From: Roseateles sp. SL47
GTDB taxonomy: Bacteria > Pseudomonadota > Gammaproteobacteria > Burkholderiales > Burkholderiaceae_C
Assembly: GCF_026625885.1 (NCBI RefSeq)
Contig: NZ_CP113068.1
Location: 3,906,001-3,970,000, forward strand
DNA: 64,000 nt
Direction of reading: 5' to 3'
Under the pieces are notes generated by a model that saw only the letters and a program-made list of their open reading frames with translations, did no database searches and was not told where the DNA came from. Position numbers and translations under genes: made by a program. This document shows, piece after piece, positions 2,550-54,255 of the stretch (positions within the stretch are counted from its first letter, which is position 1; each line of letters opens with the position of its first letter).

Positions 2550-2742
2550 GTCGAAAGTCTAGGCTCATTGCCTTCCTCGTGTCGGCGGCATGGCTTTCTG
2601 GCGGATGCCATGGCAGGCGTTTCAGGTTCAAGGTCTCGCCCGTTCCACCGCGCAACAGCGCGAAGTGGCCAACCCGGAGGAAACGCTGCATCGCTCCGAA
2701 GGGTGCGCTGCAGCGTTGCGCCCGGCCAACTGGCCGCGCCGC

Positions 2743-4554
2743 CTACAAGTTGTTCATGTCCGATTGGGTGGAGTTGAACCAGGACCAATAGTAGGTGGGT
2801 GCTGGATACTTGGCCCGCAAGGCCTTGTATTCCGCGCTGGTCCATCGGGAGGTGGTGTACACACCCACCGACCCAACGCCCGCAAAGTCATCGCGATGTT
2901 CAGGTTCGCAGAACAGCACGAAGCGGGTCAGCAAGACAGGATTGCCGGGAGACTTTTGGATCGACACGGTCTGGGACATGGCCAGGTCGCTCAGGCCCTC
3001 ACACAGTTCACCGGGTACCGCACGCGGCAAGCGGAATCTTGTGCCGTCACGCAAGTACAGATCAAACGGCCCGCTCTTGTTTGGCTTGCCCAGGAGCAGG
3101 GCCGCGCCCGTCACGTTCAGCAAGCTCGTGTCCAGTTGGGGTGTGGAAATCTTGTTGGCCTGCAGCCCTATCGCCTCCAGTTGGTTGGCTATCATGACGC
3201 TCTTTTCGCCCATCACCATGTTGCCGTTGACCGACATGACCACGTCACGGCCCCGGGTGGACAGGGCGGATCCGCTGCCGACCACCGCAGTCTGGCCAGC
3301 AATCTGCTCAGCTTGGATCAGCGCAGCATTCACAATGTTGTGGCCCGCCGCGTCCCAGTTGCCGTTTCCGCCGGGTCCACCCCCGGAGTCCGACACGGCG
3401 CCCCCGTCTTCTCCCAACAGGTTGACGGCCGCCAGGATACCCGGAACGCCTTCGCGGCCATCCTTGGACCGGATCGGGTTGTCGCTCTTGGCATGGCCGT
3501 ACACCCCCTGCATGATCCGGCTGTCCGTGGGGCTGCTCTTCAGGGTCGACAGCCGGCCCGCATAGCCCGCTTGTTCCAGGGCCGCGCCGATCTGAGCTGC
3601 GGCGCCAATGGGCAGGCTGACTCCGCCGAAGTAGTAGGGCTGGGTATTAAACACCACGGACTCCAGCGTCCAGGTGTTTGAACCGCCAGTGCCGGGCGAA
3701 GGGCCGGTGCCACCACCGGGCGTGCCCGGAGCGGGGCCAAACACTCCCTGCCCGTACTGCTGCCTCATGTAGTCGCAGTAATGACTGCCGTGGAAGAAGA
3801 CGGAGGAATTGCCGCGATTGGCGGCGATGTGGGCCCTGATCTCAGCGGGGTCGAAGATCGGCAGGATTTTCTTTTCATCCTTCGCATCTGCAATGACCCA
3901 GTCGCCGCCCTTGAACTCCTTCTTGTCCTTGGATACCTCCCCGTTGTAGCAACTGACGCCGTTGAGGCTCGGCGGCAGGTCCAGTGGCCGTGCCAGAGAA
4001 GAGGTGCCAGGACTCGCACCCGTCAGGGCGGCGGCCTTCATCAGGCTGGCCTGTGCCGGGGTGGCGGCACCACCGGTGGAAGGCGTGTCGCTGACGGGCC
4101 GGATCCAGATCGCAATGCGAGCAATGGCGGCTTCACCGGTGGCTTTGTCCACCGCAATGCCGGGGGAGAAGGGCAACATCAACTGGTCGTTGGCTCGTAC
4201 CAGCTCCAACCTGCGCAGTTCGTCAACCGTCGGTTGATAGCCGTTGGCGATCGTGACGTCGCCCAGCACCAATTTGCAGTCGACCGTCCGTTCAGATTGA
4301 TCGGAGGGCGAGGTGCCGGCCCCATCACCTAGCACCAGCGCCGCATCCGCACAGCTGCGATCCAGCGCAAGGATCTCCTTGCTGTACTTCTTCATGTAGC
4401 GGTTGGCGCCGGTGCTGATGGTGGTGAGCTGCTCCCCCACCGCCTTGCCTTGGTTGACCATCTGCGCATAACGTACGGCCAGCAGCAGGCTGGCGGTGAT
4501 GCCGGCCACCACCACCCCGGAGATGGCAGTCTCCACCAGCGTGAAGCCTCGCAT
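2743..4554 (-). CDS. PilV-like prepilin / pilus tip protein with shufflon-type N-terminal region
   Basis: The N-terminus from ATG 4554 reads MRGFTLVETAISGVVVAG, a canonical type IV prepilin leader. Cleavage would fall between Gly and Phe, followed by Glu+5 and one hydrophobic helix. The frame continues upstream to 4656 with a proline/arginine-rich leader, so a start there would give an unusually long leader; I prefer 4554 (603 residues). After the helix comes a region with NRYMKKYSKEI, then a Gly-rich linker (GTPGGGTGPSPGTGG). Next is a segment with phrases such as GNWDAAGHNIVNAALIQAEQ, resembling the constant region of conjugative pilus tip adhesin PilV. The C-terminal part (RTFVLFCEP, VYTTSRW) would be the variable tip. 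No other pilus gene, recombinase gene or sfx repeat lies nearby, so the assignment rests on the leader and overall layout. Confidence 0.6.
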   Translation of the reverse strand: MRGFTLVETAISGVVVAGITASLLLAVRYAQMVNQGKAVGEQLTTISTGANRYMKKYSKEILALDRSCADAALVLGDGAGTSPSDQSERTVDCKLVLGDVTIANGYQPTVDELRRLELVRANDQLMLPFSPGIAVDKATGEAAIARIAIWIRPVSDTPSTGGAATPAQASLMKAAALTGASPGTSSLARPLDLPPSLNGVSCYNGEVSKDKKEFKGGDWVIADAKDEKKILPIFDPAEIRAHIAANRGNSSVFFHGSHYCDYMRQQYGQGVFGPAPGTPGGGTGPSPGTGGSNTWTLESVVFNTQPYYFGGVSLPIGAAAQIGAALEQAGYAGRLSTLKSSPTDSRIMQGVYGHAKSDNPIRSKDGREGVPGILAAVNLLGEDGGAVSDSGGGPGGNGNWDAAGHNIVNAALIQAEQIAGQTAVVGSGSALSTRGRDVVMSVNGNMVMGEKSVMIANQLEAIGLQANKISTPQLDTSLLNVTGAALLLGKPNKSGPFDLYLRDGTRFRLPRAVPGELCEGLSDLAMSQTVSIQKSPGNPVLLTRFVLFCEPEHRDDFAGVGSVGVYTTSRWTSAEYKALRAKYPAPTYYWSWFNSTQSDMNNL

Positions 4555-4844
4555 TCGAGATGCGCTGGCCTTGCGGTTGCGCGGGCGGGCCAAGAGCTGG
4601 AGGTGCCGTGGAGGGAAGGCCGGCTGTGGGGGAGCGGCTGACAGGCGTGGTGGCATGGCAGTAGCGCGGTGGCGCGTGATGAAAGAATGCCGCCATCTTC
4701 CTGTCGGGCTCCACCCAGGGCTATTGCATCAATCTGCAGAGCTCATCTGCCTTCTTGAGTAAGAAGTTGGCCGTCCACCCTGAATGGGTGGTCGATGTCC
4801 CGAGCTTGGTTTTCTCATGGCAAACATGGACCGCCCTGACGGAT

Positions 4845-5984
4845 TCACTGGCGCGCCGGCTCCGGGTCGCGGTACTGCTCGGCGATGGCCTTGAACCGGT
4901 CTTGCACCGTGGTGAACGCATCCACCACGTCCGGGTCGAAATGGCTGCCACGGCTTTGGGTGATCAGGCGTGCTGCCTCGTCGTGGGACATGGGGGCTTT
5001 GTAGACACGGCGCGAGATCAAGGCGTCGTAAACGTCAGCCACCGCCATCAGCCTTGCGGGCAGGGGGATGTCCGCGCCGCGCAACCCTCTGGGGTAGCCC
5101 GTGCCGTCCCACTTTTCCTGGTGGCCGTACGCAATGTCCTTGGCCGTGTGGAGGAACTCGACCGGTGTGCCCAACTGTCGCTCGGCCTGTTCGATGGCGT
5201 CCCGACCCAGCGTGGTGTGCGTTTTCATGACCTCGAATTCCTCCGGTGCAAACGGCCCCGGTTTGAGCAGGATGTGGTCGGGGATGCCCACCTTCCCAAT
5301 GTCATGCAGGGGGGCAGATTTGAAGAGCGTGCTGATGTATTTGTCGGTGAGCAGGCCTTCAAAGCGAGGATGTTGACGCAGCGCTTCGGCCAGAGCCTTG
5401 ACATAGTGCTGGGTGCGGCGTAGATGTTGGCCGGTCTCGTTGTCCCGCGTTTCGGCCAGGGAGGCCATGGCGTGGATGGTCACGTCCTGGATGGCGGCCA
5501 GCTCGGCGGTGCGCCGTGCCACCTCCTGCTCCAGATAGCTGGCTTTGTCCCGCAGGAAATCAGCACTGGCCTTGAGTTGCAGATGCGTCCGCACCCGCGC
5601 CAGCACCAGCGGCGGGCTGATCGGCTTGGTGATGTAGTCCACCGCGCCCAGCGCGAAACCGCGGGCTTCATCCTGGGTATCCACCCGCGCCGTCAGGAAG
5701 ATCACCGGGATGTCGCGGGTGCGCGCCGAGGCCTTGAGCGCCTCGCAGGTTTCGTAGCCGTCCAGCCCCGGCATCATCACATCCAGCAGGATGAGGTCGG
5801 GGGGGGTGGGGCCTGCCGCCATGCGCAGCGCCTCGTGGCCACCCGAGGCTGTGACCACGTGATAGTGCATGCTCAGCAGCGCACGCATCAAAGCGAGATT
5901 GGTCGGGGTGTCATCCACGACCAGCACCGTGGCCCACGTGGCCGACGCAGCATGTGGCAGCACCGGATCCTCAATCGATGTCAT
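4845..5984 (-). CDS. Two-component response regulator with HD-GYP output (RpfG type)
   Basis: The 379-residue protein starts at ATG 5984, preceded by AGGGAGAG at good distance. The frame is open further upstream to 6479, but that part looks non-coding. Residues about 18-130 form a CheY-like receiver (VLVVDDTPTN, phospho-acceptor in LILLDVMMPG, conserved Lys in YITKPI). A short coiled coil follows (about 140-165), then an HD-GYP phosphodiesterase domain with LHDIGKVGIPD and the GYP motif in GHQEKWDGTGYPRGL. The family hydrolyses cyclic di-GMP, linking a histidine kinase signal to motility or biofilm. No kinase gene is adjacent. It is divergent from the exonuclease gene. Confidence 0.93.
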   Translation of the reverse strand: MTSIEDPVLPHAASATWATVLVVDDTPTNLALMRALLSMHYHVVTASGGHEALRMAAGPTPPDLILLDVMMPGLDGYETCEALKASARTRDIPVIFLTARVDTQDEARGFALGAVDYITKPISPPLVLARVRTHLQLKASADFLRDKASYLEQEVARRTAELAAIQDVTIHAMASLAETRDNETGQHLRRTQHYVKALAEALRQHPRFEGLLTDKYISTLFKSAPLHDIGKVGIPDHILLKPGPFAPEEFEVMKTHTTLGRDAIEQAERQLGTPVEFLHTAKDIAYGHQEKWDGTGYPRGLRGADIPLPARLMAVADVYDALISRRVYKAPMSHDEAARLITQSRGSHFDPDVVDAFTTVQDRFKAIAEQYRDPEPARQ

Positions 5985-6170
5985 GCGGCTCTCCCTGATT
6001 GGTGGTGGCGCGGGCATGGAGGCCGGCACCGCCTGATGGTCCGCTTTCCCATTGGAGGCACGCCCCGATGGTAGCTGCGCGGCTGTCATCATGGCGCGCA
6101 GAGGCCCCTGATGGGGGAAGGGTTGCCGTCCTACACCCAAGGGCCATTCGTCCGTTCTACGATCCAGATC

Positions 6171-7262
6171 ATGACAGTGCGCACGAGTCCGGCTTCCGAC
6201 CTGATCGTCGCCCGGCCGGAAGGTTTGTATTGCCCGGCGGGCGATTTTTATATTGACCCCTGGCGTCCGGTCCCTCGGGCCGTGATCACCCATGCCCACA
6301 GTGACCATGCCCGCTGGGGCCATGGCCATTACCTCGCGCATGAGCACAGCGCCCCCCTCCTGCGACGGCGCCTCGGTGAGGATATTCATCTGCAAACTGT
6401 GCGGTATGGTGAAGCGATTGACCACCATGGGGTGCGGCTGTCTTTGCACCCCGCGGGTCATGTGCTGGGATCGGCGCAACTGCGTGTGGAGGTGAAGGGC
6501 GAGGTGTGGGTGGCGTCAGGGGACTACAAGCTGGAGTCGGACGGCACCTGTGCCCCGTTTGAAGCGGTTCGCTGCCATACCTTCATCAGCGAGTCCACGT
6601 TTGGTCTTCCCATCTACCGGTGGCCCTCCCAGCCCGAGCTGTTTCAAGAGATCAATGCCTGGTGGCAGGCCAATGCGGAGCAGGGCCGGGCCTCGGTGTT
6701 GTATGCCTACGCCTTGGGCAAGGCCCAGCGCCTGCTGCACGGTGTGGATGCGTCGCTGGGGCCGATCATCTGCCACGGCGCTGTGGAGCCGCTGAACGCG
6801 GTGTATCGCGACCTGGGCGTGCCCTTGCCGCCCACGCGCAGGGCCACCGACCCCAGCTTGGACACATCCAGCCTCGGCAGGTCGCTGGTGATCGCGCCGC
6901 CCTCGGCCGCGCGATCCACCTGGCTGCGGCGCTTCGGCCCTGATCTGGCGGACGCTTTTGCCAGCGGCTGGATGCAGTTGCGCGGCACCCGTCGGCGCCG
7001 GGGCGTGGATCGCGGCTTTGTGGTGTCCGACCATGCCGACTGGCCGGGCCTGCAGACGGCCATTCGGGCGACTGGGGCGGAGCGGGTGTTTGTCACCCAC
7101 GGCAGTGTGCCCGTGATGGTGCGTTGGTTGTGTGAGCAGGGATTGCAGGCCCAGGCCTTTGCCACGGAGTATGGCCAGGAGGACGACCCGGCGTCGCCTG
7201 AGGAAGCGGCTCCGGGCGGTGCCTCCGACGCCAGCCCCCTGTCCCCCGCTGCGCGATCATGA
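6171..7262 (+). CDS. Ligase-associated DNA exonuclease (metallo-beta-lactamase fold)
   Basis: The metal-binding motif THAHSDHARWGH (near residue 45) and later histidines (HPAGHVLGSAQ, SDHADWPG) mark a beta-lactamase-fold nuclease of the ligase-associated exonuclease family, related to Artemis/SNM1. The ATG at 6171 gives 363 residues; the frame also has a start at 6111, but the family begins near MTVRTSPASDLIV. It is the first gene of a four-gene repair operon and its stop overlaps the ligase start by 4 bases (ATGA at 7259-7262). The family is thought to process DNA ends for the linked ligase; the exact substrate in this organism is unknown. Confidence 0.92.
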   Translation: MTVRTSPASDLIVARPEGLYCPAGDFYIDPWRPVPRAVITHAHSDHARWGHGHYLAHEHSAPLLRRRLGEDIHLQTVRYGEAIDHHGVRLSLHPAGHVLGSAQLRVEVKGEVWVASGDYKLESDGTCAPFEAVRCHTFISESTFGLPIYRWPSQPELFQEINAWWQANAEQGRASVLYAYALGKAQRLLHGVDASLGPIICHGAVEPLNAVYRDLGVPLPPTRRATDPSLDTSSLGRSLVIAPPSAARSTWLRRFGPDLADAFASGWMQLRGTRRRRGVDRGFVVSDHADWPGLQTAIRATGAERVFVTHGSVPVMVRWLCEQGLQAQAFATEYGQEDDPASPEEAAPGGASDASPLSPAARS

Positions 7263-8917
7263 AGGCCTTCGCCGCTCTTTACCGTGCGCTGGACGCCTCC
7301 ACCGCGAGCCTGGCCAAGCAGGCGGCGCTGCAGGCCTATCTGCGCGAGGCTCCGGCCGCTGATGCCGCCTGGGCCGTCTACTTTCTGGCCGGTGGCAAGC
7401 CTCGCCAATCGGTGCCCACGCGGCTGCTGCGTGAGCAGGCCCGCCTGGCGGCAGGGCTGCCGGAATGGCTGTTTGACGAATGTTATGAAACGGTGGGCGA
7501 CCTGGCGGAAACCTTGTCCTTGTTGCTGCCCCCGCCCACCAGCACCATCGAATGGCCGTTGTCCGTGTGGATGGAGCAGCACCTGCTGCCCTTGCGCGGG
7601 CAGCCGCCGGAGACGCTGGCCGCGTCGCTGCACCAACACTGGCAATGGCTGGCGGCGGACCAGCGGCTCGCCTACTTCAAGCTCATCACCGGTGCATTCC
7701 GTGTGGGCGTGTCCAGGTTGCAGGTCACGCAGGCCCTGGCGGCGGTGAGTGGCGTGGATGCCCGGCAGATCGCTCAGCGGCTCATGGGCTACACCCATAT
7801 CGGCGCACGCCCGACGGCCGGGGATTTCCAGGCCTTGATCGCCCCAGAGGAGGCGCTCCCGCAAGGGCAGTCGCGCGGCGGTCAGCCCTATCCCTTTTTC
7901 CTGGCGCATCCGTTCAATCAGCCGGTGGCGCACTTCGAGGCGCTGCTGGGCCCGGTGCAGGACTGGTTGGTGGAATGGAAGTGGGACGGCATACGCGCCC
8001 AACTGGTCAAACGTGCCGAGGGCGTGTGCCTGTGGTCCCGCGGTGAAGAGCTGATCAGCGAACGCTTCCCGGAGTTGTTGGCCATGGGCCAGAGGCTGCC
8101 GGACGGCACCGTGCTGGATGGTGAAGTGCTGATCTGGCGGGAGGGTCAGGTCCAGCCCTTTGCGGAGTTGCAGCGCCGCATCGGCCGCAAGCAGCTGGGG
8201 CCGAAGCTGTTGCGGGAACTGCCGGCGGTGCTGTGTGCCTACGACCTCCTGGAAGTGCAGGGCGACGATCTGCGCCAGCGCCCACAGCATGAGCGGCGCC
8301 AAAGGCTGGAGCAGTTGCTGTCGGCCCATCCACATCCGTCCCTGATCCTGAGCCTGCGGGTCAGCGCGGACAACTGGGCGAGCCTGGCCACGCTCCGTGA
8401 AGAAGCGCGCGCACGGGGAGTGGAAGGCATGATGCTCAAGCGGCTGGATGCCCATTACGGCATCGGTCGCACCAAGGATGTGGGGGTGTGGTGGAAGTGG
8501 AAGATCGACCCGCTGTCGGTGGATGCGGTGCTGCTGTATGCCCAGCGTGGGCATGGCCGACGCGCCAGCCTGTATACCGACTACACCTTCGCGGTCTGGA
8601 ATGGCTCCCCGGACGATCCCGCCCGGCAACTGGTGCCTTTTGCCAAAGCCTATTCCGGCCTGACCGACGAGGAGATCCGCGCCCTGGACGCCATCATCCG
8701 CAAGACCACGGTCGAAAGCTTCGGCCCGGTGCGCAGCCTGCAGCCCACGCAGGTGTTTGAACTCGGCTTTGAGGGCATTTCTCGCAGCAGTCGGCACAAG
8801 AGCGGCATTGCGGTGCGCTTTCCCCGCATGCTGCGCTGGCGCACCGACAAACCGGTGGAAGAGGCCGATTCGCTGACCACGCTGCAGGCCTTGCTGCCCG
8901 GAGGCCGCGGAGGATGA
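7259..8917 (+). CDS. ATP-dependent DNA ligase (operon-linked, Lig/Lhr cluster)
   Basis: A 552-residue ligase with an N-terminal DNA-binding domain (about 1-200). The nucleotidyltransferase domain carries the active-site Lys241 in motif I ([10 protein letters not shown]), with GEVLIWREG, motif [12 protein letters not shown] and motif [21 protein letters not shown]-terminal OB fold ends near [12 protein letters not shown]. It seals nicks using ATP and differs from the NAD-dependent LigA used in replication. It overlaps both neighbours by 4 bases, so translation is probably coupled. Confidence 0.95.
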
Positions 8918-48188: not shown

Positions 48189-49235
48189 TCAAAGGCCTTT
48201 GGCCTTGAGGGCGGTGTCCAGCCGGCTGAACACACGGCGGGCGTTGCCTTCGTAGATCTGGAAACGCTCCTCGTCATTGAGGTGGGGCGTGGCCTCGATG
48301 TAGCGCTTGGTGTCGTCGTAGAAGTGGCCGGTGGTGGGGTCGATGCCGCGCACCGCACCGATCATCTCGGACGCGAACAGCACATTCTTCACCGGGATTA
48401 CCCGGGCCAGCAGGTCAATGCCAGGCTGGTGATAGACGCAGGTGTCGAAAAAGATGTTGTTGAGCAGATGCTCGTCCAGCAGCGGCTTCTTGAGTTCCTG
48501 CGCCAGGCCGCGGAAGCGGCCCCAGTGGTAGGGCACCGCACCGCCGCCATGCGGAATCAGGAACTTCAGTGTGGGGAAGTCCTTGAACAGATCACCGGTC
48601 AGGCATTGCATGAAGGCGGTGGTGTCGGCGTTCAGGTAATGCGCGCCGGTGGTGTGGAAACAGGCATTACAACTGGTGGAGACATGAATCATCGCCGGAA
48701 TGTCCCACTCCACCATCTTCTCGTAGATGGGATACCAATGGCGATCGGTCAGCGGCGGGCTGGTCCAATGGCCGCCGGACGGGTCGGGATTGAGGTTGAT
48801 GCCAACAAAGCCATAGTCCTTGACGCAGCGCTCCAGTTCCGGAATGCAGGTGGCCGGGTCCACGCCCGGGCTCTGCGGCAGCATGGCGGCGCCAATGAAA
48901 TGGTCCGGGAAGAGCTGGCTGACGCGGTAGCACAGCTCATTGCAGAGGGCCGCCCAGGTGGAGGAGGTCTGGAAGTCACCGATGTGGTGGGCCATGAAGC
49001 TGGCGCGCGGACTGAAGATGGTGAGGTCGCTGCCGCGTTCCTTCATCTTGGCCAACTGGTTGGTGATGATCGATTCGCGCAGTTCATCGTCGCTGATCGT
49101 CAGCTCCGACGGCTTGGGGGCAAGGCTCGGGTCCTTGAGACCGGCGATCTGGCGGTCCCGCCAGGCCCCCAGCGCCGCCGGGGCGGTGGTGTAGTGGCCG
49201 TGGACGTCGATGATCAATGGCTTGCGGTTGGACAT
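48189..49235 (-). CDS. ligJ: 4-oxalomesaconate hydratase LigJ
   Basis: A 348-residue amidohydrolase-fold hydratase. The metal motif is [12 protein letters not shown] at the N-terminus. Other motifs are [65 protein letters not shown] and [19 protein letters not shown]. These fit LigJ/PmdE, which hydrates 4-oxalomesaconate to 4-carboxy-4-hydroxy-2-oxoadipate. Products of both protocatechuate and gallate cleavage pass through this step. Confidence 0.93.
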
Positions 49236-50153: not shown

Positions 50154-51050
50154 ATGAATCTCACCCAACTGGAAACTTTTGTCCATGTGGCCGAGCATGG
50201 CAGCTTTAGCAAGGCGGCGCTGGTGCTGGGCGTGGCCCAGCCGGCATTGAGCCGCCAGGTGCGGGCCTTGGAGACGGAGCTGCATGAGACCCTGCTGCTG
50301 CGCAATGGCCGCGGTGTTCAGCTCACCGAAGCCGGGCGGCGCCTGCTGCAGCATGGGCAGGACATTCTCAACCTGGTCAGCCATGCCAAGGAAGATCTGC
50401 GGGCGCAGCGCAGCGAGCCGGTGGGGCAGATCACCATTGCCATGCCCCCGACGCTGGCCCGGCTGCATACCCTGGCGCTGATCCGCGCCTTCCAGGCGGA
50501 TATGCCGCAGGCCCGGCTGGCCATTACCGAGGGGTTTTCGGTCCATCTGACCGAATGGCTGCTGACCGGCCGCACGGACCTGGCCCTGGTCTACAACCCG
50601 GAGCCGGTGCCCGCCTTGGAAATCCTGCCGCTGCGCAAGGAACGGCTGTGCCTGGTCAGCCCCCGAGGCGAGGCACCGGCACGGCCGCCGACGCTCAAGC
50701 AACTGGCCCGCTATCCGCTGGTGATGCCCCAGCGGGGCCATGTGTTTCGCTCGCTGATGGAGAAGGCTGCTGCCATGGCGGGGGTGCAGTTGGAGGTGCG
50801 CTGGGAGGTGTCCAGCGTGCCGGCCATCCTGGATTGTGTGGCGGCCGGCATTGGGCACGCGGCACTGGGCGAAGATGCCCTGCGCATCGTGGAGCAGCCG
50901 GAACGCCTGGTGGTGACGCCCCTGGCCCGTGCGGACATCCAGAGTACGCTGTGCCTGGTCACTCCCACCAGCAAGCGGGCCACACCGCTGATGCAGCGGA
51001 CGGCGGCTCTGCTGATGCGGCTGGTCGGGGAGGCGCCGGTGTCGGAATAG
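50154..51050 (+). CDS. LysR-family regulator divergent from the lig operon
   Basis: From ATG 50154 (MNLTQLETFVHVAEHGSFSK) 298 residues; an ATG 4 codons upstream is also in frame. The LysR helix-turn-helix has SKAALVLGVAQPALSRQVRAL. The effector domain has VGQITIAMPPTL and LVYNPEPVPALEILPLRKERLCLV, similar to the NAC/CynR group. It probably activates the lig operon in response to a pathway intermediate, judged from the divergent arrangement alone. Confidence 0.9.
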   Translation: MNLTQLETFVHVAEHGSFSKAALVLGVAQPALSRQVRALETELHETLLLRNGRGVQLTEAGRRLLQHGQDILNLVSHAKEDLRAQRSEPVGQITIAMPPTLARLHTLALIRAFQADMPQARLAITEGFSVHLTEWLLTGRTDLALVYNPEPVPALEILPLRKERLCLVSPRGEAPARPPTLKQLARYPLVMPQRGHVFRSLMEKAAAMAGVQLEVRWEVSSVPAILDCVAAGIGHAALGEDALRIVEQPERLVVTPLARADIQSTLCLVTPTSKRATPLMQRTAALLMRLVGEAPVSE

Positions 51051-51228
51051 GGCGGTTGCCATGTGCGGGTCGGGGCCGTTGCGTAAGGCCCGGGCAGCCC
51101 AATTGCGTCGCGAGGTAAAGCTTCGGTAGCGCTGTGGCGCACATCCCTACAACCGTCCCCCGAAGGTGGGTAGGTGTCCCAGGCTTTTCGTTGACGCCCC
51201 GGATGCGCTTCAGGAAGATTCGCCCACC

Positions 51229-51837
51229 ATGCCAGAGACTTCTCACACCTTCGGACCTTCCGGTCAGCAACGCCCCAGCCTGTGGCGGACGCTGCTCTGG
51301 TGGGTGCTGGCGGCGTTGGCCGCCTTTGTCTTGTTGGAGGCCGTGCCCGCACGGGCCGCCTCCACCTCGGCGGCAATGCTCCCATCGATGTCCGGCCCCA
51401 CCCCCGTTGCATCAGGATCGGCCGTGGGCCCCGCAGCGGTGCCCCGCTTGACGGCGGGTCTCCCGCTTCCGGTGATCACGCCGATTGCAGATTGCTCGGC
51501 CTTGACCAGCACCTCGTTGGTGGAATTTGCAGGAGCCGGTCGCCGTGGGACCAAGGCCTTCAAGGCTACCAGTCAAGGGTTGCCGGCCAGCATCCAGTTC
51601 CGGGTCGAGCTGCCGCTGGGCCGCTGGACGCAGCCTTACCTGTAGATCGGATCAACGACGGCAGCTTCGGTGCCGATGCCGCCAAGCGCGAGGACTTTGC
51701 CCATCGTGCCGTGCATGTCACCGCCGTGGCGGCCCAGCGGCTGATTGAACGCTTCGACGGACGGCCCAAGCGCTTTGCATATTTCAGCGGCTACTGGGAG
51801 GGGGGGGCGTGAAGCCCTGGTGGCGGCGCAGCACACT
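51229..51837 (+). pseudogene. Truncated, frameshifted tannase/feruloyl esterase gene
   Basis: From ATG 51229 the frame has a membrane-like leader (LLWWVLAALAAFVLLEAVPA), then DCSALTSTSLVEFAG and IQFRVELPLGRWTQPYL, where it stops at 51643. The matching continuation is in another frame: INDGSFGADAAKREDFAHRA, VHVTAVAAQRLIERFDG and FAYFSGYWEGG. After a run of eight G (51800-51807) a third frame gives REALVAAQH. This is the N-terminal part of the tannase family, up to where the nucleophile motif FSGCSDGGREAL is expected. The Cys-Ser-Asp is replaced by Tyr-Trp-Glu, so the active site is lost. The remaining two thirds of the gene are absent. Confidence 0.72.
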
Positions 51838-51846
51838 AGGCGGAGA

Positions 51847-52377
51847 TTACGCACACTGAAGTGCCTTGAAATTGTCGACGTAGAAGTCAAGGCTTTCAGT
51901 GACGACGTGGTCATAAAAGCCACCCAGCCGACTGTTCAGTTCATCAAGACCGAACTTGACCGCGCTCTGCTCAATGTGCCGGAAGTCCATGAAGCGGGCC
52001 CGTGCTTGGTTCTTCATTACGACACAGAAGTGATACCGGCAGTCTCTGGCTGAGAAGTCCTTCAGCAAGCCTTTCAGTAATTCTGTTCCCGCCTCAAACT
52101 TGCGCTGCATTTGTGCTTTGTCGATATCCGAGGTGCGCTGGTTTTTGAATTCGACAAAGTAGAGATCCTTGTGTCCCGCTTGGATGGCGTCTGGGGATGC
52201 GGGGATCGGGGCAGCGCTTTGGGCTCGTACGTAAGCGTCGAAGTCATAGACCTCTGCTGTAGCTTCATCACTGCAGAGATGCTGTCCGTTTGCGACATCC
52301 AAGCTGGTGGCTTTGAATGTCGAACTGTAAGGACCGAGCGCTTGCGCCAGGTGTTGCTTGAGGCTGTATTTATTCAT
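51847..52377 (-). CDS. Unknown protein with E-x-K nuclease-like motif, partner of the ATPase
   Basis: A 176-residue soluble protein starting at ATG 52377, overlapping the end of the ATPase gene by 8 bases. Residues 70-80 read KDLYFVEFKNQ, a beta strand followed by E76-x-K78. Asp45/Asp47 lie upstream (VYDFDAYV) and helices follow (DIDKAQMQRKFEAGTELLKG). This is the pattern of a PD-(D/E)xK nuclease, though the remaining fold cannot be checked by eye. The second half has CRYHFCVVMKNQARARFMDF. I do not recognise a named family. GC is lower than in the flanking lig and gal genes. Confidence 0.75.
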   Translation of the reverse strand: MNKYSLKQHLAQALGPYSSTFKATSLDVANGQHLCSDEATAEVYDFDAYVRAQSAAPIPASPDAIQAGHKDLYFVEFKNQRTSDIDKAQMQRKFEAGTELLKGLLKDFSARDCRYHFCVVMKNQARARFMDFRHIEQSAVKFGLDELNSRLGGFYDHVVTESLDFYVDNFKALQCA

Positions 52378-53677
52378 CGCGCAAGTCCTCTGCATCCATT
52401 TTTCTGAAGACTTCAAAGGGCTCGGCAAGGATGCTGAAAATGTCACTCAGGCGGTCTTCATCGTCAATGCTTCGCCCTTGCGCCAGGGCGAAGCGTGACT
52501 CTGCATCGAGTCCTGCGCGATCCACATCGCGCTTGAGGGCTTCAATCAGGTAGGGGCTGTGCGACGACACCAGAACGTACACGCCGTTTTCTGCCAATGT
52601 CACCAACACCTTGGCAAGCCTGAGTTGCCATTTGGGATGCAGGTGATTCTCCGGCTCATCAAAAATGAGAACGGTGTTCTTTGCCACGAATTCGTTGGCC
52701 ACCAGCATCTTGAGCAGTCCAAACACCTTGATGCCGCTGGCTGTGTTCTTGATGGAGATGGAGGTGCCGCGCCGATGAAACAAGAAGTCGCGCTCTGCTT
52801 TGTCGTACGCCACTTCACCGTCCATCAGCCGCTCCAAGTCTTCCAGCAGCTCGCTTGAATTCAGGGCGTTGCCTTCACTGAGCAGATCGGCAGGCAGCGC
52901 CGGTGTTCGGAGCTTGTCGAACAGATCTTTGGTGTGCAGTGTCGTGAATGGCTGCCCCAGGCGGCTGGAACGGCGCTGGCCCATGTCCAGCAGGGTTTGG
53001 CTTCGTGCCAGCACATCATGGTTGTTCAGGATGAGCGGCGAATCAATGAAGGTGGCATCTTTCAGTGGGACTGGCTCCACCTCGCCCGACAGGCGTACGC
53101 CGCTGTCTGTTACCCGAAGATCAAGAAGGGTCAGGCTGTTCTCCACCAGTTGGATTCGCCCTTCTGCCGCCCCTTGCAGCAGCAAGGAGGCGTCAAACTC
53201 CGATGCAAAGACCTTGTTGAGTGCGTTTTCAATGGATTGCTTGACGTCTTCAGGCTGATCCAGCGCAGTCTGAATGTCGTCGCGAAGCGCTAGAACGGCC
53301 TGCTGATCCTCCGGAGCGAAACTTCCCAGCGCGAAGATGCGTTGGATGTGGTCATCAATGGCGGCCAACTGCTCCTCGGCACTGATCCGGTGCTTTGTCA
53401 AAGAGCGTAAACGCCGCAACACATCCATCATTTCGGGGGTGGTGTGTGGCATGGCCTCGCGGAGGCGGAAGTAGATCTCGTCTGTCTTCTCCTCAACCCT
53501 GAATTCCCTGGACTCTTGCAAGTCTTCCCGATAGCGGTTGATGGCCTTGACGATGCAAAAAACAATCTTGCCGACGGTGCTCTTTCCGTTGTCGTTTTCA
53601 CCAGCAATGACGCATAGCTTGCGCAGCGAAAGTTCGGCATGCTGGAGCATGCCGATGTTGTCGAGGATGAGCTTCAT
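52370..53677 (-). CDS. OLD/ABC-like AAA ATPase of a putative defence operon
   Basis: A 435-residue ATPase. Walker A is GENDNGKST (residues 26-34), in the usual place after a first strand as in SMC/OLD/RecF-like proteins. A helical insert of about 200 residues follows. The signature-like segment is NTASGIKVFGLLKML. Walker B is VLIFDEPENHLHP, followed by VLVSSHSPYLIEAL with the H-loop His. This layout is shared by ATPases of systems such as Septu, PARIS and Gabija and of overcoming-lysogenisation nucleases, but no TOPRIM domain is attached. It starts at ATG 53677, overlapping the upstream small gene by 4 bases (ATGA). Confidence 0.88.
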   Translation of the reverse strand: MKLILDNIGMLQHAELSLRKLCVIAGENDNGKSTVGKIVFCIVKAINRYREDLQESREFRVEEKTDEIYFRLREAMPHTTPEMMDVLRRLRSLTKHRISAEEQLAAIDDHIQRIFALGSFAPEDQQAVLALRDDIQTALDQPEDVKQSIENALNKVFASEFDASLLLQGAAEGRIQLVENSLTLLDLRVTDSGVRLSGEVEPVPLKDATFIDSPLILNNHDVLARSQTLLDMGQRRSSRLGQPFTTLHTKDLFDKLRTPALPADLLSEGNALNSSELLEDLERLMDGEVAYDKAERDFLFHRRGTSISIKNTASGIKVFGLLKMLVANEFVAKNTVLIFDEPENHLHPKWQLRLAKVLVTLAENGVYVLVSSHSPYLIEALKRDVDRAGLDAESRFALAQGRSIDDEDRLSDIFSILAEPFEVFRKMDAEDLRDE

Positions 53678-53844
53678 GATGTGCGTCCTTCTGGAATCGA
53701 TGCTTCTTCAGGTGCCTCGCGGCGCAGTGGTCGGCCCGGGACCTTGATTGTCAGAGATTGACCTGGCAGTGCCACGCGATCTGGTAAGAACTCGGAGGCC
53801 ATCTCAGTGGAGGCGGTGAACTTCTTGGGTTGCGGGGCCGTCAT
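53674..53844 (-). CDS. Small protein (56 aa) coupled to the ATPase gene
   Basis: AGAGGGA lies 7 bases before ATG 53844; the adjacent ATG 53847 would add one Met. The frame encodes MTAPQPKKFTASTEMASEFL and then a basic and acidic tail (LPDRVALPGQSLTIKV, RREAPEEASIPEGRTS). Its TGA overlaps the ATPase start. No domain is recognised. In position and size it could be an antitoxin-like or accessory factor. The same frame is open upstream to 53910, so it may alternatively be the tail of a decayed regulator gene. Confidence 0.5.
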   Translation of the reverse strand: MTAPQPKKFTASTEMASEFLPDRVALPGQSLTIKVPGRPLRREAPEEASIPEGRTS

Positions 53845-53906
53845 CATGCGGTCCCTCTTGAGCGACGCCCATGTTTCCGGGATACCCCGGTGCCGAGGTG
53901 GTGGTC

Positions 53907-54101
53907 TCAACGCCGTACAAAGCGAGGGGGTCTTTCAGCCAGAGTCGGTAGTGTGTCCCCCGCAGGCTGGGCTGACTGGATGCCAAAGCGCTGCGTCAAG
54001 CCCGGGCGCCGAAGCTCCCCGAGGAAGCGCCATCGGAGCCCGATGTGTTTGAGTCGGTCCCGCTGGGATGCGGCAAGTTCAGCCGTCGGATCAGCTTTCA
54101 T
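53907..54101 (-). pseudogene. WYL/CapW-BrxR-type regulator, N-terminal fragment
   Basis: From ATG 54101 the frame reads MKADPTAELAASQRDRLKHI, then GLRWRFLGELRRPGLTQRFGIQSAQ. This is the winged helix-turn-helix start of WYL regulators of the CapW/BrxR kind (pattern RLxFIxFRLxFLGEVxRxDLxxRFGI). It then runs into an unrelated 20 residues and stops. The rest of a normal 280-residue protein is missing. Such regulators usually precede anti-phage operons. No other gene is supported in 53848-54255. Confidence 0.5.
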
Positions 54102-54148
54102 CGCGGCTGCAGCCAAGGTCAAAAGTTGCGGGCATTTTATCCGTACGA

Positions 54149-54158
54149 CCTCATGAGG
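54149..54158. promoter_or_regulatory. Palindrome CCTCATGAGG upstream of the ATPase operon
   Basis: A 10-base perfect palindrome. On the minus strand it sits between a weak -35-like TTATTT and a GATAAAAT -10-like element, about 50 bases before the regulator fragment. It may be an operator for the lost WYL protein. Confidence 0.35.
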
Positions 54159-54255
54159 AAATAAAGATGCGCAGAGGGTGACCCAATGGCAGTTCGATAG
54201 GTCACTTGCCCAGGCCGCCCGTACGCGAGGGGGCGCGGGGGCGCGGTCATCACCC

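Follow-up and report, generated by a model that had tools for sequence, protein, structure and literature searches.

An acquired pair of an OLD/ABC-type ATPase and a PD-(D/E)xK-like partner in Roseateles sp. SL47, a probable two-gene anti-phage module of a known kind

Background

WonAB, encoded by the WASA-1 prophage of Vibrio, is a pair of an OLD-ABC ATPase and a PD-(D/E)xK-variant enzyme, the activity of which requires each of the two genes and each of the two active sites (PMC12137116). WonAB aborts infection through an arrest of translation; when WonB is overproduced alongside WonA, translation ceases and the genomic DNA is left undegraded. WonB is toxic only with WonA present, simple sequestration being ruled out by the authors, who assign WonAB, PD-T4-4 and the operons termed 'OLD-ABC ATPase + Novel REase' to one larger family that is as yet uncharacterised. 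Furthermore, a survey of BREX (bacteriophage exclusion) systems reports, for 594 taxa, OLD-ABC ATPases paired with HNH, PD-(D/E)XK or PIN nucleases in BREX or related loci (PMC12839542). The present study concerns a pair of overlapping genes in a 64,000-nt stretch of the genome of Roseateles sp. SL47 (contig NZ_CP113068.1, positions 3,906,001 to 3,970,000; hereafter the window), which quite probably constitutes a self-contained two-gene anti-phage module of the WonAB/PD-T4-4 kind, i.e., an ATPase-gated PD-(D/E)xK effector with a likely abortive outcome.

A sequence-only reading of the window had proposed an undescribed system of three genes at this place. What is found is a real, conserved and acquired system of two genes, which represents a new family but belongs to a known kind and does not open a new category.

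Gene organization and protein features

Both genes are situated on the minus strand, the gene of the 435-aa OLD/ABC-type ATPase (putative sensor) at 52370..53677 and that of the 176-aa PD-(D/E)xK-type partner (putative effector) at 51847..52377, with an overlap of 8 nt between them. A further minus-strand open frame of 56 aa (53674..53844) overlaps the ATPase start by 4 nt. The lengths and overlaps of the three frames and the motif LYFVEFKN of the partner had been given exactly in the sequence-only reading. With 157 homologues of the partner (E ≤ 0.01) and 781 of the ATPase (E ≤ 1e-5), the two larger frames are more than chance.

As far as profile matches and motifs can tell, the larger protein (435 aa) is, as the earlier reading had supposed, an ATPase of the OLD/ABC type, and it lacks TOPRIM: its Pfam matches include AAA_15 (E 4.5e-16) and AAA_21 (E 3.3e-14), and no TOPRIM family is among them. 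Invariant among 13 sequences, down to 21% identity, are N28, G31 and K32 (Walker A), N311 and G315 (signature), D340, E341, P342 and E343 (Walker B), and H373 (H-loop). In the window, the corresponding motifs are Walker A GENDNGKST (53576-53602), the signature-like NTASG (residues 311-315), Walker B LIFDEPE (52649-52669) and the H-loop His373 (52559-52561), all on the minus strand, and the protein ends only 62 residues past this histidine. Among solved sequences in the PDB, 19 match the ATPase profile at E ≤ 0.001; PtuA, AriA and OLD lead the list with matches to the C-terminal half, and UvrA and CbiO are among the weaker ones. In PADLOC, 148 families match at E ≤ 1, with HEC-02A at the top (E 1e-31, in two stretches, the best at 270-382), and phrog_14430, a PHROG family without annotated function, matches residues 1-400 (E 4.7e-66). 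A second match of 66 residues in the same genome and partial matches in viral contigs were left out of family membership.

The 176-aa partner resembles PD-(D/E)xK enzymes and is a predicted nuclease: its AlphaFold2 model (predicted template-modelling score 0.82) is similar to PD-(D/E)xK nucleases at modest Z, which is compatible with the PD-(D/E)xK-like fold that the sequence-only reading had called for. DNA-cutting restriction enzymes occupy the top rows of this comparison, and Hjc is found among the lower ones. The superfamily pattern of an invariant D followed by (D/E)-x-K is present as D63 (52189-52191) and E76-F77-K78 (52144-52152), with K93 (52099-52101) being likewise invariant; D47 lies at 52237-52239 (all minus strand). 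At E ≤ 1, neither Pfam nor NCBIfam nor PADLOC yields a match to the partner, and its profile finds nothing up to E 10 among PDB sequences. Nor does the partner have a match among 50,697 phage records, among plasmids or, with the patterns applied there, in IMG/VR, and it is present in 2 of 399 genomes of the family, that of the window included. The earlier statement that the partner is neither HNH nor TOPRIM thus holds at the level of library matches, and a placement of the partner in a named PADLOC defence family, which would have spoken against the earlier reading, did not result.

The lower-ranking Hjc rows, together with weak Pfam matches of the ATPase to SMC_N and AAA_23 (E 0.09-0.1) and a RecN match (E 0.005), would fit a housekeeping pair for DNA repair or recombination, composed of a RecF/RecN-like ATPase and a resolvase-like nuclease; given the sporadic occurrence of the partner in the family, the low GC content, the differing genomic sites and the defence neighbours described below, such a role is highly improbable.

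The 56-aa frame

The proposal of a three-gene system stands for the ATPase and its partner and falls for the 56-aa frame, as in eight related loci no protein similar to it is found upstream of the ATPase. At E ≤ 1, it has no match in Pfam, PADLOC, NCBIfam or PHROG, and none in plasmids at E ≤ 0.1; among 250 genomes of the family, its sole clear match is itself, beside two weak ones, the first with E 0.006 over 44 residues at 30% identity and the second with E 0.010 over 35 residues at 40%. The overlap of 4 nt arises because the ATPase start ATGAAG puts a TGA into the neighbouring frame. In two related loci (L004 and L005), frames of 52-55 aa with sequences unlike the 56-aa frame stop at the same TGA, since this start supplies it in any genome. 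The ribosome site of the ATPase, GAAGGA, lies inside the 56-aa frame, which we judge to be a product of chance or, at most, a leader frame holding that site, and to stand outside the system.

Relation to described systems

Compared by description only, the pair is similar to WonAB in that an OLD-ABC ATPase is followed by a small PD-(D/E)xK-variant nuclease and in that both systems consist of two genes and are mobile and sporadic; the catalytic lysine of the WonAB nuclease as well as the Walker A lysine, Walker B glutamate and H-loop histidine all have counterparts in the window pair. A difference is that relatives of the window pair are often situated inside BREX.

Concerning PD-T4-4, the profiles of the two ATPases align over 405 columns with a probability of 99.9 (hhalign, global mode), whereas the PADLOC model PD-T4-4_A matches the window ATPase weakly (E 1.4e-26; of the two stretches matched, 274-381 is the best) and the model PD-T4-4_B is unmatched by the partner at E ≤ 1. 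Profile comparison nevertheless connects the partner alignment A5 to PD-T4-4_B (probability 72.1, E 3.4e-5), with D63 and E76-x-K78 falling on their PD-T4-4_B equivalents, while the controls, a reversed and 60 column-shuffled versions, reach 0.3 at most. The close partner alignment A1 alone attains a probability of just 3.5, such that the signal depends on A2 and A5, which are diverse alignments. At E ≤ 1e-60, PD-T4-4_A itself is found in 12 of 299 genomes of the phylum, at 15 places, and not in the genome of the window. For the 12 of these places that were available as loci, the first frame within 60 nt was taken by script, and in all 12 the adjacent downstream frame contains, by inspection, x-D...(D/E)-x-K. 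On the basis of these alignments, the partner is remotely homologous to PD-T4-4_B but is not PD-T4-4_B by the PADLOC models, and the pair looks to be built like PD-T4-4 and WonAB.

PARIS (AriAB), Septu (PtuAB) and Gabija (GajA) share with the window pair the OLD/PtuA-type ATPase core, but their nuclease is of the TOPRIM or HNH type, whereas in the window the ATPase extends only a short way past the H-loop and is accompanied by a PD-(D/E)xK-like partner. Septu was rejected, as the partner has no HNH or PtuB match at E ≤ 1 in Pfam, PADLOC or NCBIfam, and so were PARIS, OLD and Gabija, as TOPRIM is absent from the Pfam matches of both proteins and the partner is without a PADLOC or NCBIfam match. 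The PADLOC candidate HEC-02 was likewise discarded, because HEC-02B, the model of its second component, matches the ATPase as well, while PADLOC yields nothing for the partner.

The same organization is reported for the 'OLD-ABC ATPase + Novel REase' operons (PMC12137116) and, including the embedding, for the BREX-embedded OLD-ABC and PD-(D/E)XK pairs (PMC12839542), both being likened here by description only. As regards the designation of the system as undescribed, the partner is matched by none of the PADLOC, NCBIfam and Pfam models. The designation does not extend to the kind, to which the two-gene systems WonAB and PD-T4-4 belong and of which BREX-embedded pairs had been noted in general by the survey.

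Conservation of the pair

Scanning 84,980 species, each represented by one genome, yielded nine related loci (L003-L011). Eight of them (L003-L010) were retrieved with the partner as query, such that the test there is whether the ATPase comes first; L011 starts inside the partner and was left out of the pairing count. The ATPase gene is situated directly upstream of the partner in all eight and, with the window, in nine of nine loci; in L010, the open frame of the partner begins 8 nt past the ATPase stop. Six distant loci were retrieved with the ATPase as query, under the restriction that at least 80% of the query is covered or that the match is full-length in genome searches (two of 26 matching plasmid records cover at least 80%). 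One of them is a phage record (24% identity) and two are plasmids (27% and 24%); the remaining three are genomes, one with 35% identity to the window ATPase and two with 33% and 27% to P0192. In each of the six, the ATPase gene is overlapped by the frame downstream of it, which contains [ST]-x-D...EFK. The pairing is hence present in 15 of 15 loci that show both genes, down to 21% ATPase identity; L013/L022 and L052/L055 had been dropped as lying on the same contigs as L004 and L010. This conservation, like the defence context described below, agrees with what the sequence-only reading would lead one to expect.

Among 120 partner and 120 ATPase clusters listed from metagenomes, the sizes of the longest contigs coincide in 27 cases, against a mean of 1.3 and a maximum of 6 under the null. 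Weighing against a strict pairing, however, 27 listed clusters of 431-aa ATPases (P0167 to P0205), which are abundant (up to 231 contigs) and around 76% identical to the window ATPase, coincide with no listed partner cluster, whereas four of the 36 listed clusters of 431-aa ATPases (P0220, P0222, P0238 and P0239) do. Exceptions to the pairing may thus exist, the ATPases of P0167-P0205 using another partner or having lost theirs.

Acquisition at the tannase site

The GC content of the pair is 54.9%, compared to 65.8% in the window, and none of 622 windows of the size of the pair, sampled every 100 bases across the 64 kb, has a GC content as low. Two lines counted earlier proved correct, one with 28 G/C of 60 (52621-52680) and one, in the lysR gene, with 43 of 60 (50461-50520). 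The conclusion drawn from them that the block is acquired is supported too. Of 16 genomes of the genus searched with the neighbouring lysR protein, seven match, including that of the window. The nearest one (G773, 95% identity) has the same flanks and is collinear on both sides, but contains 1,340 bp, lying within an intact frame of 726 aa, in place of window positions 51832-54254, i.e., of a block of around 2.4 kb with a GC content of 56.7% that bears the ATPase-partner pair. This intact frame holds a homologue of the tannase remnant found at 51166..51831 (plus strand) of the window. Pfam Tannase matches the remnant at 51642-51812 (E 2.3e-8) and not at 51166-51645, and parts of window positions 51592-51831 align with the intact frame of the G773 locus (L032). 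The acquired block has thus taken the place of most of a tannase/feruloyl esterase gene, on its 3' side, and left a broken 5' remnant. At 51640-51831, the remnant is split over different frames, and it ends near a G run just before the edge of the block. In the five other aligned members of the genus, the lysR gene lies near sequence matching window positions 49000-49216, which indicates a variable site.

The edges of the block carry no repeats, and a search for boundary repeats and promoters gave nothing convincing. A prophage origin of the window copy was rejected, as no prophage mark is seen and the partner is unmatched in phage records; phrog_14430 and the one phage record with relatives of the ATPase indicate that phages do carry this kind. 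A degraded BREX in the window, suggested by a candidate BrxR/WYL remnant at 53907-54122, was dropped, as Pfam and PADLOC are empty there and the genome has no PglZ match.

The distant relatives on two plasmids and in a phage, the overlap of the two genes and the small size of the effector would also suit a toxin-antitoxin-like addiction module, with the partner as a toxin held by the ATPase and a role in plasmid or island maintenance. Yet the ATPase comes first in gene order and its catalytic motifs are complete, and the toxicity of WonB depends on WonA, which speaks against simple sequestration (PMC12137116); we regard addiction as decidedly unlikely.

Neighbourhood of related loci

A BREX setting is found in five of the nine related loci (L003, from Pseudomonas oleovorans, L005, L006, L007 and L011). 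In three of them, the pair is situated between two halves of pglX (2742-4574 and 9607-11388 in L003, 2659-4470 and 6889-8634 in L006, 2638-4461 and 10137-11867 in L007), L011 shows only the C-terminal half (691-2457), and L005 has an undivided pglX, with the pair located between this gene and pglZ. Relative to the intact PglX of L005, the N-terminal halves stop at residue 653-654 and the C-terminal halves start at 643-660, such that little or nothing of PglX has been lost.

The division of the BREX pglX is clean, one half comprising the methyltransferase and the other the specificity part, and the halves are fitted by half-length PglX models in PADLOC (607 and 593 positions); in three plasmid BREX loci taken for comparison, pglX is whole. 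Exchangeable modules occupy this slot: besides the ATPase-partner pair, L003 has a reverse transcriptase of the UG5-nitrilase type there, and L007 has SIR2-HerA. In L003, a 47-aa frame (4571-4714) that begins where the pglX half ends resembles, by eye, the N-terminus of another ABC ATPase and stops at the pair, as if an earlier module of the slot had been replaced. A description of such a slot was not found in a limited check of parts of the literature, and the word 'split' is absent from the main text of the BREX survey (PMC12839542).

Concerning the other loci, L004 contains a fragment of HsdM (type I methyltransferase) just upstream of the pair, cas3e neighbours the pair in L009, a PDC-M29-like pair adjoins it in L010, and no defence gene is recognisable by eye in L008. 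L010 (Oligella) exhibits at 2894-8415 three consecutive pairs of an ATPase and a small partner, namely a PDC-M29A/B-like pair, the present one and a third, the 173-aa partner of which has a weak AbiLii match (E 0.008). Two plasmid BREX loci (L049, Methylomonas, 5652-7267; L050, Sphingobium, 5532-7204) possess another pair between brxC and an intact pglX, composed of an ATP-binding or hypothetical protein of 370-390 aa and a hypothetical protein of around 165 aa.

PglZ is unmatched in the genome of the window, so the pair does not need BREX. PARIS responds to the anti-restriction protein Ocr. Because of the BREX and hsdM neighbours, the pair might be a back-up sensor that monitors phage anti-restriction damage to BREX or the type I methyltransferase and then fires its PD-(D/E)xK effector, a guard role that we hold to be rather unlikely. 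An ATP-gated restriction activity, in which the pair would itself cut foreign DNA (unmodified or modified) and so assist BREX or type I restriction-modification (RM) as an accessory nuclease, is conceivable though doubtful: it would fit the five BREX settings, the hsdM fragment and the restriction enzymes in the top structural rows of the partner, but the pair also exists without BREX, as in the window genome, no BREX is seen nearby in L008, L056 and L057 (by inspection), and in WonAB, the closest tested kind, overproduced WonB halted translation with the genomic DNA intact (PMC12137116).

Proposed mode of action

The reading as a self-contained anti-phage module of the WonAB/PD-T4-4 kind draws on the conserved pair, the intact ATPase and nuclease motifs, the nuclease-like model, the horizontal acquisition and the linkage to BREX, RM and CRISPR loci. 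By analogy with WonAB, the OLD/ABC ATPase, probably as a dimer, would form a complex with the small PD-(D/E)xK enzyme and hold or activate it. A trigger produced by the phage would alter the state of the ATPase, upon which the partner would act as a nuclease and cut its putative nucleic-acid substrate, which may be DNA or else tRNA or rRNA, through a metal site formed by D63, E76 and K78. The infection would thereby stop, most likely with harm to the cell too, i.e., by abortive infection, an outcome that we infer from the WonAB analogy.

Conclusions

Pairs of an ATPase and a nuclease form a class that was only recently shown to stop phages and that is sparsely tested. To this ATPase-gated class the present pair adds a family with hundreds of homologues, the predicted nuclease of which escapes recognition by the searched libraries of known families. 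Copies embedded in BREX and solitary copies, such as that of Roseateles sp. SL47, constitute a natural comparison between guarding restriction systems and acting alone.
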